NCBI GenBank assembly: GCA_017409785.1
Contig: JAFQSD010000002.1
Coordinates: 226,597-290,596, forward strand
Origin: Bacilli bacterium
GTDB lineage: Bacteria > Bacillota_I > Bacilli_A > RF39 > UBA660
Direction: 5' to 3'
Length of the DNA stretch: 64,000 bases
The stretch's first letter is position 1. The number at the start of each line of letters is the position of its first letter. A model generated the notes under the pieces. It was not told the DNA's origin. It searched no databases and saw only the letters and a program-made list of their open reading frames with translations. A program made the position numbers and the translations under genes. Below are positions 7,101 through 12,064 of the stretch, piece after piece.

Positions 7101-8634
7101 ATCTTTTCTTAATCTCCTCTTTAATAAATTTAATGAATTCATCTATTGGTAAAGAAATATTTTCTTCACTTCCAAATCTTCTAAAACTTACCAAGTTATT
7201 ATCTCTTTCATTATCTCCAATAATTACTGAGATTGGATTTTTCATAACATTACTGTTTCTGATCTTTTTACCCATATTCTCTTTAGAGTCATCATACTCT
7301 ACTCTAATATCTTCATCAATTAATAAGTCTCTTAACTTACGACAATATTCATCATGATACTTAACACTAACTGGAATAATATTTACTTGTACAGGAGAAA
7401 GCCAAATTGGTAAAACTCCTTTAAATTGTTCAAGAAGTAGTACTAAGAATCTTTCATAAGATCCAAGTACTGCTCTATGTACCATAACTGGAACTTGTTT
7501 TTCACCATTCTCATCTATATAGAATAATCCAAATCTCTTAGGAGTAGCAAAATCTAATTGAACAGTTGGTATTTGAATTTCTCTACCCAAGGCATCCTTA
7601 AACATAAAGTCTAACTTAGGTCCATATAAAGCAGCTTCTCCTTCACATCTAACTGCGTCTAATCCTAACTCATCAGATACTTCTTTAAGCATCTCTTCAC
7701 ACTTATCCCAGTCTTCTTTACTTCCAATATACTTTTCAGGATGTTCATAGTCTCTTACAGATAAAGATACCCAATGATTATCCCATAGACCCATTCTTGA
7801 ATAAAAATCTCTTATTAAGTTACACATATTCATAACTTCTTCTTTAACTTGATCTACTCTACAGAATGAATGTCCATCTTCAACAGTAATTGCATATACT
7901 CTTGAAAGTCCCCCAACAGCACCTTGTAATTCAGCTCTATACTGTTTATCAGACTCCATATATCTAATTGGTAAATCTTTATAACTTCTAAGCTTAGAAG
8001 CATATATTTGAGTATGATGTGGACATTGTACTGGTTTTAATACAAAACTATGTCCTTTAGGTGACTTAACTCTAAATAACTCATCATTAAATTTCATCGC
8101 ATGTCCACTTGTTTCAAAAAGTGAAATATCAGCTAAACTTGGACAACTTACCTTTTGAAATCCATACTTACGACATACTCTTTCAATTTCTCTTTGAAGT
8201 TCATCTTTAACAATACATCCTCTTGGAGAATAAAGCGGAAGTCCTGGACCAACATAATCTGAAAAACAGAATAAATCCAATTCTTGCCCTATTTTTCTAT
8301 GATCCCTCTCTTTCGCATCTTCTAAGAATGCTTCATATTCCCTAACTTCTTCTATTGATGAAAATCCTTTCCCAACAATTCTAACAATCATCTCTTTACT
8401 AGAGTCTCCATCTAAATAAACTCCACTAATACGAAGTAACTTCACAAAACAATCATCATCTAACTTATGAATTTCTTCTTCTAATTTTTCAAAATCATTT
8501 TCACTAATTACTTCATCACACTTAAAATCATAATAAAATTCTTCATCCTTAAACCCAATACTTTCAAAAACTACATTACTATAATTATTTCTTATTACTT
8601 CTTGTAATAACTTACTTCCTTTTTCATTTATCAT
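7099..8634 (-). CDS. thrS: Threonyl-tRNA synthetase, short form without TGS/editing domains
   Basis: The protein attaches threonine to tRNA-Thr. It has 511 residues against about 640 for the usual bacterial enzyme; the catalytic core begins near residue 110 (RDHRKIGQELDLF) after only a short N-terminal region, so the TGS domain and most of the editing domain are missing. Core landmarks are VGPGLPLYSPRG, the zinc Cys/His in KPVQCPHH, the motif 2 region YRAELQGAVGGLSRV, the VHRAVLGSYERF motif 3 and a C-terminal anticodon domain (VNIIPVSVKYHDEY). Without editing it may mischarge serine unless another factor corrects this. Tandem leader elements at 8735-9108 control it. Confidence 0.92.
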   Translation of the reverse strand: MINEKGSKLLQEVIRNNYSNVVFESIGFKDEEFYYDFKCDEVISENDFEKLEEEIHKLDDDCFVKLLRISGVYLDGDSSKEMIVRIVGKGFSSIEEVREYEAFLEDAKERDHRKIGQELDLFCFSDYVGPGLPLYSPRGCIVKDELQREIERVCRKYGFQKVSCPSLADISLFETSGHAMKFNDELFRVKSPKGHSFVLKPVQCPHHTQIYASKLRSYKDLPIRYMESDKQYRAELQGAVGGLSRVYAITVEDGHSFCRVDQVKEEVMNMCNLIRDFYSRMGLWDNHWVSLSVRDYEHPEKYIGSKEDWDKCEEMLKEVSDELGLDAVRCEGEAALYGPKLDFMFKDALGREIQIPTVQLDFATPKRFGLFYIDENGEKQVPVMVHRAVLGSYERFLVLLLEQFKGVLPIWLSPVQVNIIPVSVKYHDEYCRKLRDLLIDEDIRVEYDDSKENMGKKIRNSNVMKNPISVIIGDNERDNNLVSFRRFGSEENISLPIDEFIKFIKEEIKKR

Positions 8635-8670
8635 TTTATTTCCTCATTTCTTAATATCTATTTACTTTTT

Positions 8671-8712
8671 CTACTTCTGGGAGTACTTGGTCTCACTTTC
8701 TTTCTTGGTCAT
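8671..8712 (-). CDS. 13-codon ORF between T-box and thrS
   Basis: ATG 8712 is preceded by AAAGGAGGAGAT, a stronger ribosome site than that of thrS itself, and encodes MTKKESETKYSQK, ending 36 bp before the thrS start. It lies after the T-box terminator, so it is translated only when thrS is transcribed. It holds two ACC Thr codons. It may be a coupling or leader peptide, or it may simply load ribosomes; its function is unknown. Confidence 0.45.
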   Translation of the reverse strand: MTKKESETKYSQK

Positions 8713-8734
8713 ATTTAAATCTCCTCCTTTATAA

Positions 8735-8945
8735 CAAAAAAAGAATGGTCCCATAGGAGTGCATTCTGCACGGTACCATCCTTCTATTCACTTAATTACT
8801 TAACGAAGTCTCCTCCGGGAATCTCTTTCGAGTCCAACTAATAGGTAGTAACTACTAGATACATTTATTATCTTCCACCAAACGATAACTCTCTATAAAA
8901 TATAATTCTAATAATCATGTCCTATATATTAGTCTTTATAAATAC
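8735..8945 (-). promoter_or_regulatory. T-box leader of thrS
   Basis: On the minus strand GGATGGTACCGTGC is the T-box antiterminator sequence. It is followed by the competing terminator in which GAATGGTCCC-type halves close on GTGCA/TGCAC, ending in seven T. Upstream lies a long Stem I-like region with AGAGAG near its start and candidate Thr specifier codons (ACU, ACC) in TTACTACC. T-boxes bind uncharged tRNA and allow read-through into synthetase genes, here tRNA-Thr. A TATAAT at 8951-8946 lacks a good -35, so transcription probably enters from the leader promoter upstream. Confidence 0.88.
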
Positions 8946-8961
8946 ATTATAACATAAATAT

Positions 8962-8993
8962 AAAAAAGTCTATTACTTGATTGTAATAGACTT
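8962..8993 (-). terminator. Attenuator terminator after Thr leader peptide
   Basis: AAGTCTATTAC and GTAATAGACTT form a perfect 11-bp stem with loop AATCAA and six T, 31 nt after the leader-peptide stop. The loop and the end of the ascending arm (ACAATCAA, 8984-8977) are complementary to TTGATTGT (9050-9043) inside the leader ORF, giving an alternative fold that would break the terminator. Confidence 0.75.
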
Positions 8994-9024
8994 CTTCAAT
9001 AAAAATATTCTTAAGATACTATAA

Positions 9025-9108
9025 TTATTTAAGTACGCCAAAACAATCAATATTACTAATTGACTTAACTGTAGTTGTATAAGTTGTCGTAATTTGATTT
9101 CTTAACAT
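9025..9108 (-). CDS. Thr-rich leader peptide (27 codons)
   Basis: ATG 9108 follows AAAGGGAGTGG and encodes 27 residues including TTTYTTT, that is six Thr codons among seven (ACG ACA ACT TAT ACA ACT ACA, 9090-9070). The ORF begins 28 nt after the predicted transcription start of a consensus promoter and is followed by an intrinsic terminator, as in amino-acid biosynthetic attenuators such as E. coli thrL. Segment AGTCAAT (9065-9059), just after the Thr codons, can pair with ATTGATT (9051-9045), the segment that can otherwise disrupt the terminator. Stalling on Thr codons should therefore promote read-through into the T-box and thrS. Confidence 0.7.
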   Translation of the reverse strand: MLRNQITTTYTTTVKSISNIDCFGVLK

Positions 9109-9141
9109 ACTTTCCACTCCCTTTTTCAAAAAAGCAGTCTA

Positions 9142-9170
9142 ATTATATCATACTTTTCTAATTATGTCAA
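9142..9170 (-). promoter_or_regulatory. Consensus promoter of the thr leader
   Basis: TTGACA (9170-9165) and TATAAT (9147-9142) are separated by exactly 17 bp, a perfect sigma-A consensus. Start is expected near 9136. Confidence 0.85.
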
Positions 9171-9175
9171 TTTCA

Positions 9176-9203
9176 CCAAAAAAGAACCCTTACAGGTTCT
9201 TTA
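9176..9203 (-). terminator. Terminator after paralogue A
   Basis: AAAGAACC and GGTTCTTT halves are followed by T residues on the minus strand, just after the stop of the gene at 9208. Confidence 0.7.
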
Positions 9204-9207
9204 ATAA

Positions 9208-10113
9208 CTATGCTTCATTTTCTACTGAACTATATCTATAACTTGTTCTTCCTTGAGCAAAGAATCCTAATCCTTCAGCAACTTTTTCATTTGTTTCTCT
9301 TGCTAAAAGTTCATTAATTTCTTCTTCACTTAATGCAGGAATTTCAACATCTTTCATTGGGAACTCATTATAGTCACTAGCAATAACTAAATCTTTTAAA
9401 CTATTTCCTCTATGAAGTGGAACAACTCCAAAGTAATTACTATCACTAGCACGATTTTCATAAGTAAGTCTAGCAGTATCTAACATTTCTCTTCTTAATA
9501 AAGTTCTCTTATTATAAGTATCAGACCAAGGACCATAATCAAATGCTTGTCTAGCTAATAATAACATTTCTTTAGCCCCAACTCTATGGAAATATCCTTC
9601 TCCTTTACGAGTTGAATAAACTTTAAGTTCTCTTTCATACATAACTCCACGTTTAGTATAAACTCTTCTTTCTACAGAATTATGCATGTTATAGTGATGA
9701 TTATCACAACCAATATTATCAACTGCACCATTATTAGTAATAATTATAACTTCACCATGATCACCTAAAGTAGCAATTTGTTCTACAACATTCTTTTGTC
9801 TAACAACATTACCATCTTCACCAACATATGAATGATTTTCAAATTCTTTAACACATTTAACTGTTCTTTCATCTGGACAAGAAACACCTAATTTATATTT
9901 ATCACCAGAATGATTTATATAACTAAATGAATAATAATTATTACTCTTATCAACTAAAACAACACTTGGATCTTCAATATGCATTTCTTCAATAAATCCA
10001 TTTACTTCTGATAAAGCTGTAACAAAAGCAGGATTTTCTAAAAATTCTAAACAAACACCTAATTCTACTACTTTATCTACTATATTATCTCTTAAATCAA
10101 TTACACTACTCAT
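9208..10113 (-). CDS. Lineage-specific protein, paralogue A
   Basis: About 301 residues. I start it at ATG 10113, which has AGGAGG and aligns with the start of the neighbour; a longer frame upstream runs through that neighbour's terminator. It is clearly homologous to the gene at 10203 along its full length: VIDLRDNIVDKVVELGV against VRELRKNLVDKVCELGV, then NSYVGxxGxVVR, DNIGCDNHHYNM, GYFHRVGAKE, RTLLRREMLDTAR and YFGVVPL. No signal peptide, membrane segment or known motif is visible. The invariant Cys, His and Tyr in GCDNxHYNM might bind metal. Function unknown. Confidence 0.6.
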   Translation of the reverse strand: MSSVIDLRDNIVDKVVELGVCLEFLENPAFVTALSEVNGFIEEMHIEDPSVVLVDKSNNYYSFSYINHSGDKYKLGVSCPDERTVKCVKEFENHSYVGEDGNVVRQKNVVEQIATLGDHGEVIIITNNGAVDNIGCDNHHYNMHNSVERRVYTKRGVMYERELKVYSTRKGEGYFHRVGAKEMLLLARQAFDYGPWSDTYNKRTLLRREMLDTARLTYENRASDSNYFGVVPLHRGNSLKDLVIASDYNEFPMKDVEIPALSEEEINELLARETNEKVAEGLGFFAQGRTSYRYSSVENEA

Positions 10114-10147
10114 ATTATAGCCTCCTATACTATATACAAGTATAACA

Positions 10148-10180
10148 AAAAAGCAACTTATTGTAAATAAATTGCTTTTA
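10148..10180 (-). terminator. Terminator between the paralogues
   Basis: AAAAGCAA-TTATT and AATAA-TTGCTTTT pair around GTA and continue into T on the minus strand, separating the two paralogous genes into independent units. Confidence 0.65.
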
Positions 10181-10202
10181 TATTTCAATAATTTTACTAT
10201 AT

Positions 10203-11129
10203 TTACATAACTCTAACAGCAACTGAAGTTTTGTTACCATTATTACTACTATAACTATAAGTAGTTCTTCCTACTGCATATTCTCGTAATCCATTAGCAA
10301 CTCTTTCATCAGCTTCTCTAGCAATCATTGCATCAACTTCACTTTGCATTAGTGGATGAATAGTTACATCAGGTACTGGATAAGTATTATACCCATTAGC
10401 AATAAACATATCTCTTAAACCATGTTGTTGATCTAATGGAACAACTCCATAATGTGTATGTCTTGTAGTTTTATCTTCATATACAACTCTAGCTGTATCT
10501 AATTTCTCTCTTCTTAATAATGTTCTAGAAGTAACTGTATTATTCCATCTATCATATTGTGGTGCCCATCTAGCATAAGATAATAATTCATTTGCTCCAA
10601 CTCTATGGAAATATCCATTACCTAAACGAGAACCATAATGTCTACTTTCTCTTTCATGCATAACACCATTTCTATCATAAACACAAGTTTCTACTGATGA
10701 ACTCATATTATAATGTACATTATCACAACCAACATTATCCATAGAACCAAAATTTGTAGTAATTGTAACACTACCATAATCATCAACTTTAGCAACTTTT
10801 TCAATTGCATGTTTTACTCTTACAACACTACCACTATTTCCAACATAAGAATGTGGTTCTTCAACTCTTACACATTTAACAAAATCTTCTCCTGCAGTTA
10901 ATTCAAAACTATATTTATCTCCTGCGCTATCAGTATAATCAAATGCTATCATCCCATCATGTTCTCTAACATGTACACTTTCTGGATTACTCACATTCAT
11001 ATTATTTATTAAACCATCTATTCCTGATAAAGTTGGAATAAAAGCAGGATGTGATACAAAGGCACTTCCAACACCAAGTTCACAAACTTTATCTACTAAA
11101 TTCTTTCTTAATTCTCTAACGTTACTCAT
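10203..11129 (-). CDS. Lineage-specific protein, paralogue B
   Basis: 308 residues; the start ATG follows GGAGGAG. It shares with paralogue A the blocks HSYVGNSGSVVRVKHAIEK, ITTNFGSMDNVGCDNVHYNM, GYFHRVGANELL and RTLLRREKLDTARV. The C-terminus ends in a Ser/Asn-rich tail (YSYSSNNGNK). No known family is recognised. The tandem arrangement indicates a local duplication, with divergence strongest in the N-terminal third. Confidence 0.6.
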   Translation of the reverse strand: MSNVRELRKNLVDKVCELGVGSAFVSHPAFIPTLSGIDGLINNMNVSNPESVHVREHDGMIAFDYTDSAGDKYSFELTAGEDFVKCVRVEEPHSYVGNSGSVVRVKHAIEKVAKVDDYGSVTITTNFGSMDNVGCDNVHYNMSSSVETCVYDRNGVMHERESRHYGSRLGNGYFHRVGANELLSYARWAPQYDRWNNTVTSRTLLRREKLDTARVVYEDKTTRHTHYGVVPLDQQHGLRDMFIANGYNTYPVPDVTIHPLMQSEVDAMIAREADERVANGLREYAVGRTTYSYSSNNGNKTSVAVRVM

Positions 11130-11215: not shown

Positions 11216-12064
11216 TTACACAAGAATTTTTTGAGGTTTCTTCTTAACATATTGATGCATAAAATTACTCTTATCACTTTTACCTGGTAATAGTAATTCT
11301 GCAAACTCTATAGCCTTATCTCTATTCTCTCTTTCATATCCTTCTAAGATATATATTCTAGCAAAACTATCAATATATCTATCTACTTCTCTCTTATCAT
11401 ATCGTGGCTTTGCCGCACCCATAGTTAAATAATAAAATACGTTAATATAATTTTGCCAATATAAAGGATTATTAGTCATATTAGCAGGTCTATATTCAAT
11501 TAAATCACGATCTCTAGTTTTAAATGTAATTCCATATCTCTTTTGATTAGAAAACATTCCAACAGTGGCACCATCTCCAACAGACAACATTCCTTTTAAT
11601 GCTAAAATTATTGGTGCCGCATATATATCTAAAGAGTCTCTATATCCACTATCTCCTTGTGAAAATCTATAAATAATATCTTCATACATTGCAAATAATT
11701 TTAATAATCTAACTTTTTCTTTATCACTAGGTAATAAACTACCATCAAAGTTTACTTGAAAACTACATTTATCATAATCAGGATTTAAACTTTCTAATAT
11801 TTCACCCAATCTTAATAATTCTTTCCAAGTATCTTTTGTATTTTGTAAAACTGGTGATACTATTTCAGCACTTTCTCCTTTAGTAAGACTCTTATCATCT
11901 TTAATTGACCATCTAGAACCCATTTCTTTCCTAACTAACTTATAAACTTCATTAGGATTAACTTTATCTAATTCTAATTCTAATCCAAAATTTACTTTTT
12001 TAGGAATACCTAAAACCTCTCTATATTCAAAAGGTCTTTTCTCCATCTCTCTAATTATATCCAT
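11216..12064 (-). CDS. Putative amidoligase (GCS/GS-like fold)
   Basis: 282 residues. KVNFGLELELD (about residues 23-33) matches the first acidic motif of the amidoligase_2 family, WSIKDDKSL the second, GESAEIVSPVL the third and CSFQVNFDGSL the position of the family HxH strand, here with Gln/Asn instead of His. Such enzymes join amines to carboxylates and often modify peptides or cell-wall components. It lies upstream of a FemX-like ligase gene, though spacing does not prove co-transcription. The start ATG follows GAGGAGGTGAT. Confidence 0.55.
   Translation of the reverse strand: MDIIREMEKRPFEYREVLGIPKKVNFGLELELDKVNPNEVYKLVRKEMGSRWSIKDDKSLTKGESAEIVSPVLQNTKDTWKELLRLGEILESLNPDYDKCSFQVNFDGSLLPSDKEKVRLLKLFAMYEDIIYRFSQGDSGYRDSLDIYAAPIILALKGMLSVGDGATVGMFSNQKRYGITFKTRDRDLIEYRPANMTNNPLYWQNYINVFYYLTMGAAKPRYDKREVDRYIDSFARIYILEGYERENRDKAIEFAELLLPGKSDKSNFMHQYVKKKPQKILV

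Follow-up and report, generated by a model that had tools for sequence, protein, structure and literature searches.

Attenuation through a leader peptide is best known from the thr operon of E. coli, whose leader encodes a peptide with Thr codons, folds into a mutually exclusive terminator and antiterminator, and controls biosynthesis genes. The RNA logic of stalling leaders ahead of resistance genes is similar. Several tRNA sensors can also stand before one gene: B. subtilis thrZ carries three T-boxes, and in the B. subtilis rtpA (anti-TRAP) operon, ascribed to Chen and Yanofsky (2003, 2004), a T-box is reportedly followed by rtpLP, a leader peptide acting on translation.

In Bacillota, His leader peptides have been described at a hisS paralogue and hisZ (PMC2965389) and at his operons (PMC9413887), and tandem T-boxes at thrS (PMC12452182). 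The tyrZ gene has an adenine riboswitch and a T-box-Tyr, with a promoter before each (PMC9481103). For tenericutes, one paper notes a lack of reliable data on attenuation (PMC4833913). Here we describe a locus of a Bacilli bacterium in which a codon-run leader stands ahead of a T-box.

Results

Organization of the locus

The window, by which we mean the whole 64,000-nt stretch of DNA analyzed, carries on its minus strand, in order, a promoter (P1), a leader ORF, an intrinsic terminator, a T-box, a second short ORF and a threonyl-tRNA synthetase (ThrRS) gene. As judged from the sequence features below, positions 9170-8961 are very probably a ribosome-mediated transcription attenuator for a second ThrRS gene, with a run of Thr codons that would read out the supply of charged tRNA-Thr. 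P1 (TTGACA-17-TATAAT, 9170-9142, minus strand, as are all features of this locus) matches the consensus at 12 of 12 positions, has a TG before its -10 element and is conserved among relatives. A Shine-Dalgarno (SD) sequence GGGAG (9121-9117) precedes leader peptide 1, a 27-codon ORF (MLRNQITTTYTTTVKSISNIDCFGVLK, ATG at 9108, stop at 9025) with homologous Thr-rich ORFs 5' of thrS2 in relatives. Its codons 7-13 (9090-9070) read Thr Thr Thr Tyr Thr Thr Thr (TTTYTTT) and are the putative sensor. The promoter and the six Thr codons in seven had been proposed by an earlier sequence-only reading, and both stand. A short ORF, an SD sequence and a run of cognate codons are what an attenuator of the trp, his or thr type would have.

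Four RNA elements accompany the ORF. A 5' arm spanning the start codon (9112-9088, core AAUCAA at 9099-9094) was identified in the minimum free energy (MFE) fold and from duplex energies in 17 leaders and in the Lys leaders described below. Segment 1 (AGUCAAU, 9065-9059) is conserved as AARTCAAY in the leader alignment. Segment 2 (UUGAUUGUUUUGG, 9050-9038) is the 5' side of the predicted antiterminator, and segment 3 (CUAUUACAAUCAA, 8989-8977) lies over the 5' arm and loop of the intrinsic terminator (8998-8961). The three segments had been recognized before; the pairing of segment 2 extends further into the terminator than was then claimed.

Downstream, a candidate promoter P2 with an extended -10 (TGtTATAAT, 8954-8946) ends 7 nt before the T-box match (8939-8752). 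The T-box covers positions 1-219 of the RF00230 model with 74.3 bits (E 3.7e-16), which is below the Rfam gathering score of 93. Its specifier, by our own reading of the model alignment, is ACU (Thr, 8849-8847). The 13-codon ORF of leader peptide 2 (MTKKESETKYSQK, 8712-8671) follows, with Thr-codon ORFs similarly placed in relatives. The earlier reading was right that the downstream synthetase has its own T-box, and had overlooked this second Thr-codon ORF behind it.

The synthetase gene (8634-7099) encodes a 511-aa ThrRS (TIGR00418, 515.7 bits) with catalytic and anticodon domains and no tRNA_SAD editing domain in Pfam. Since the genome encodes a full-length ThrRS elsewhere, the gene described here is an additional synthetase, which we name thrS2; the earlier reading had no means of knowing that it is a second ThrRS or that it lacks the editing domain. 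The other ThrRS has the tRNA_SAD domain and its own T-box, and no peptide leader. We infer that the physiological role of the locus is tight control of a backup ThrRS without an editing domain. Two adjacent genes at 9208-11129 (minus strand) encode proteins that resemble each other, each about 300 aa long and unmatched in Pfam and NCBIfam; P1 follows the end of one of these genes, and the pair adjoins the leader in a sister species (G002) too.

Conservation of the leader peptide and its RNA

We aligned 33 leaders, 17 and 16 from two genome sets. Left out were second-set loci that repeat a first-set genome, as judged by peptide, one duplicate (L113, the same as L111), two later finds (L198 in G259 and L178 in G388), and seven loci that lack the core or run off a contig (L087, L092, L096, L102, L118, L119, L120). 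Across codons 5-16, ACN occurs 178 times in frame versus 6 and 2 times in the other frames. At least four Thr codons are present in 27 of the 33 leaders and at least six in 21. The run is weak or gone in the remaining six (three Thr codons in G312, L110 and L115, two in L111, one in G373 and L106). The rare codons ACG and ACC make up 48 of the 182 Thr codons of leader 1, versus 29 of 791 in the 45 long ORFs of the window. For L106, the leader with one Thr codon, no promoter of its own was seen by eye; it lies right behind what appears to be the tail of a tyrS gene.

The DNA of the leader ORF is identical base for base among the three species analyzed from the genus. Their flanks vary, as does thrS2, with 95-97% identity at the protein level, which suggests that the RNA is constrained along with the peptide. 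Segment 2 is present as UUGRUUGUUUU in every aligned leader, but its reading frame varies. The peptide stops inside segment 2 in five leaders (G175, G241, G376, L100, L101) and ahead of it in five others (G238, L112, L117, L110, L111). Where measured, the stop codon falls between -8 and +28 nt of the start of segment 2, a placement in which a ribosome at the end of the ORF would mask the antiterminator strand, as an attenuator would need. Since segment 2 is kept while frame and stop shift, the IDCFSI ending of the other peptides is probably a by-product of the RNA element. The C-terminal residues are not conserved across leaders. We therefore rejected the notion of an independently conserved small protein: its C-terminal half is lost through frame changes and early stops, although the RNA is retained.

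Terminator, antiterminator and competing folds

The terminator at 8998-8961 is the sole terminator-like site in 8500-9600, where shuffled sequences give a mean of 0.2, and it stands between leader ORF and gene, as attenuation would demand. The fold of leader plus terminator has a z of -4.95, and none of 200 shuffles is as good. Across the leaders, five of the ten stem pairs have changed on both sides while 99.7% of alignment cells remain paired, which none of 500 shuffles equals.

The putative antiterminator joins 9050-9038 to 8989-8977 through 8 bp, a 2x2 loop and 3 bp. In the window this duplex of segments 2 and 3 reaches -11.2 kcal/mol, a value that is modest when taken alone (17 of 1000 shuffles reach it). 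Its match becomes convincing by comparison with relatives only, not from the window alone. Segment 2 is complementary to the terminator 5' arm and loop in 96.8% of cells; the covariation is weak (75 of 500 shuffles are as good) because both strands are nearly invariant. In L108, whose loop is altered, the loop still pairs with its own segment 2 given one bulged U, as read by eye.

When the upstream part is held away, all 17 leaders folded are predicted to adopt the 2:3 pairing in the nascent RNA, with mean pair probabilities of 0.81-0.98, and an antiterminator that excludes the terminator is also predicted in six of six further leaders. The 5' arm is also able to pair with segment 2 in the MFE fold. 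With the whole leader free, it captures segment 2 in several leaders, that of the window among them, and the 2:3 probability there falls near 0. In five leaders (G060, G097, G037, G175, G269) the free leader already favours 2:3, with a probability above 0.9. Termination without a ribosome is thus no general prediction, since these five would prefer the antiterminator untranslated. The competition between the pairings is clear in the modelled folds, and the ribosome-free default is not uniform.

Lysine version of the leader

Five genomes (G085, G322, G159, G280 and G343, the last two nearly identical; loci L202, L208, L209, L212 and L213) carry the same leader with a Lys run, MLNNQIKKSIKKNKKSI, directly before the gene for class I LysRS (lysK). 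This assignment comes from the two of the five proteins that were scanned (PF01921, E about 1e-111; TIGR00467). The leader ORF reads MLN.QIKKSIKKNKKSI..IGCFS.SS., and no T-box was reported at the Lys-run leaders of these five genomes. Their terminator stem is different yet retains ACAAUCAA, and their antiterminator comprises 14-15 continuous bp. Four of the five, those with UUGGUUG in segment 2, have AACAACCAA as their 5' arm. The same leader with an Asn/Lys/Ile-rich run, NKIIKNNKKS, also occurs in another genome (G260, L207 / L191) ahead of a DUF7674 protein.

The codon run thus matches the downstream synthetase, Thr before ThrRS and Lys before LysRS, and this is the strongest evidence for codon sensing. 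The match also bears on two other accounts of the leader. It might mainly be a general sensor of translation that releases segment 2 upon stalling of any kind or slow initiation, with the Thr run contributing only part of the response. In favour of this, the 5' arm covers the start codon and Thr codons are few in some leaders. The strictly in-frame runs of Thr or Lys that match the synthetase nevertheless make such a sensor unlikely. It might instead be an arrest-peptide or drug-induced attenuator that stalls on the nascent peptide, as macrolide leaders do, and not for lack of Thr-tRNA. Although the RNA logic is similar, the run switches to Lys before LysRS where an arrest peptide would be conserved, and the C-terminal residues are not kept, so that we give this account hardly any weight.

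The codon-sensing attenuator is therefore the reading we follow. From its parts, their conservation, the competing pairings and the match of run and synthetase, all of which appear in the sequence, we infer stalling, termination and read-through as follows. When Thr-tRNA is ample, the ribosome would reach the stop codon in or near segment 2 and cover segment 2, and the terminator would form. When it is scarce, the ribosome would stall on the Thr run and keep the 5' arm and segment 1 away. The freed segment 2 could then pair with segment 3 in the terminator 5' arm and loop, and the polymerase would continue into the T-box. The T-box would be a second checkpoint, for uncharged tRNA-Thr, ahead of thrS2. 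Some transcripts probably start at P2 and skip the leader, and the Thr-codon ORF behind the T-box probably adds a translational check.

Distribution of the leader and thrS2

Among 386 genomes of the family, 21 encode a close ThrRS, and in 17 of these it is of the short type (thrS2). All 17 short-type genes have the leader, although in G259 gene and leader lie at the ends of different contigs; the presence of the leader before thrS in related genomes is what the earlier reading had suggested looking for. No leader was seen at the four long-type ThrRS genes of the 386 genomes, one of which has little upstream sequence. In its own genome, the leader model finds a single strong match of 122.6 bits, the next being 24.4 bits (E 0.45).

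A wider search combined a covariance model with a pattern for segments 1 and 2. The pattern occurs in 22 of the 386 family genomes and its reversed form in 2. Of 395 genomes searched for other families of the class, 5 contain it: two are known family cases, and the other three, outside the family and with other spacing, were taken as chance. Matches at L185, L187 and L193 were also taken as chance, as no codon-run leader is found there, and we did not class L180 (E 6.8e-6) or L181 (E 0.004) as leaders of this kind. At L180, a weak leader- and terminator-like stretch precedes what appears by eye to be a homologue of an amidoligase-like gene of the window (11216-12064). The relatives are recorded as metagenome-assembled Bacilli, Erysipelotrichaceae, Clostridia, Mollicutes or Tenericutes, and many were sampled from goat, sheep, water deer or rabbit ("Lapin").

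T-box, candidate second promoter and series control

TGnTATAAT stands just before the T-box at 13 of the 25 T-box loci evaluated, window included (G259, L101 and L102 are left out of this count and the spacing in G238 was taken by eye). As P2 lies between terminator and T-box, part of the thrS2 mRNA in the window may start past the leader. P2 would probably yield a further transcript under T-box control alone, with P1 transcripts meeting both devices. The proposal that threonine shortage is sensed twice in series thus holds for P1 transcripts, and P2 transcripts probably see the T-box only.

P2 also invites a different account, in which the leader ORF is an independent gene for a small protein or sRNA and thrS2 is made only from P2 via the T-box. 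P1, ORF and terminator do form a complete unit, and an extended -10 is conserved before the T-box as counted above. Against this, the T-box begins 15-27 nt past the terminator stem at five loci (G376, G238, L089, L112, L117), which leaves no room for P2, so leader and T-box must act in series there. Eight of the 33 leaders (G084, L105, L106, L107, L108, L110, L111, L115) have no T-box, as judged by motif and spacing: segment 3 lies 55-198 nt from the gene in these and at least 289 nt where a T-box is present. A cmscan at E 0.01 finds no T-box in the eight; the same scan missed five of seven loci with plain T-box motifs. In four of the eight (L106, L108, L110, L115) a ribosome-binding site comes no more than about 10-20 nt past the T-run. 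In these four, the stretch from the terminator to thrS2 or leader 2 has no room for another promoter, so thrS2 must be read through the attenuator. The Lys version likewise sits directly before lysK. Given these loci and the loss of the C-terminal peptide while the RNA is kept, an independent unit seems very unlikely.

The two devices come and go separately, as the T-box-less loci and two others indicate. In L102, leader and terminator are lost and P1 now runs straight into the T-box. In L092, start codon and terminator are lost together, while P2 and the T-box are kept. A peptide conserved without its terminator, which the sequence-only reading would have taken to point to an independent small protein, was not seen among the leaders. 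The case for a stalling attenuator, proposed in that reading, is strengthened by conservation, by RNA elements that are independent of frame, by the T-box-less leaders and by the Lys/LysRS version.

Leader peptide 2 and other ORFs behind T-boxes

A script finds leader 2, which usually starts with MT, in 31 of 36 upstream regions, including those where the T-box is missing. It reports none in G097, L089, L100, L106 and L115; another look finds one in G097. Thr accounts for 91 of its 433 codons, 75 of the 91 are ACG or ACC, and ACN occurs 91, 15 and 4 times by frame. Its stop codon lies 4-38 nt before the thrS2 start (36 nt in the window). The folds are inconsistent with respect to a simple SD-sequestering hairpin (GGAG/CUCC). 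Leader 2 is a likely third sensor and a candidate translational check.

Short ORFs follow the T-box at 5 of the 17 T-box loci of the same genome, thrS2 included. A second tyrS has a T-box and then an ORF MDSDYYYYYFDDCNLINYTNYL.. with a Tyr run (MDSDYYYYY.., L009 1731-1829, plus strand), which is kept in two other genomes (L219, L220, L221). The ORF behind the trpB T-box reads MKEYDWNWRKPY.. (..DWNWRKPY..), and that behind the serS T-box reads MKKFSFNNLIFSKVSC, with 3 Ser in 16. These three genes were identified by eye from sequence. A short ORF behind the glyS T-box is a weak case (trpB, serS and glyS loci: L007, L016, L017). A trpB homologue was missing in 48 other genomes, so that the Trp case rests on one genome. 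A filter for cognate runs before the other T-boxes of the genome returned nothing convincing.

Discussion

We have high confidence, in silico, that the attenuator is real and that its series control with the T-box applies to P1 transcripts. A broader view is possible, which we consider slightly less probable than an even chance: the backup synthetase would be guarded by three tRNA sensors, namely a peptide attenuator, a T-box and a rare-codon leader peptide. The leader would belong to a family that swaps its codon run, and a T-box followed by a cognate peptide would recur at tyrS and trpB. The division of labour within that view is equally tentative; the attenuator would sense charged tRNA at transcription, the T-box uncharged tRNA at transcription, and leader 2 would act at translation.

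Gain and loss of attenuator and T-box separately before the same gene form a natural series in which one could test what is gained by sensing charged and uncharged tRNA jointly. The exchange of Thr for Lys on one RNA frame offers a direct view of how attenuator specificity changes. The locus also places codon-run attenuators in gut Bacilli, some with records labelled Mollicutes or Tenericutes, and it suggests a possible reason to keep a spare synthetase without an editing domain tightly off.

Leader-peptide attenuators in Bacillota, tandem thrS T-boxes and the pairing of T-box and leader peptide are known; in our limited search we did not find the stack or the Thr/Lys swap in print. That search covered the open-access literature, with subscription journals mostly outside it, and yielded no paper in which a Bacillota synthetase is under a leader-peptide attenuator for Thr or Lys, or in which such an attenuator is stacked on a T-box. 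The locus resembles the E. coli thr leader in its Thr-codon peptide and exclusive folds, but the regulated gene is a synthetase; the covariance model of Rfam Thr_leader has no match in 8500-9250 at E up to 10. As in the rtpA operon, a T-box and a leader peptide would sense uncharged tRNA twice in series. The rtpA peptide comes after the T-box and acts on translation, whereas the main leader here comes before the T-box and would act on transcription, so that leader 2 is the closer analogue.

The His leaders of Bacillota are likewise codon-run attenuators in Gram-positives, and one set sits on a duplicated synthetase, as here. They use His codons and are described as replacing T-boxes, whereas our leader is stacked on one. 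Tandem T-boxes similarly place a ThrRS gene under serial tRNA-Thr sensing, but they repeat one device where this locus combines two different ones. The tyrZ arrangement shares two promoters, the second serving the T-box alone, and a second synthetase gene with thrS2; its first device is a metabolite riboswitch, whereas that of thrS2 is very probably a peptide attenuator.
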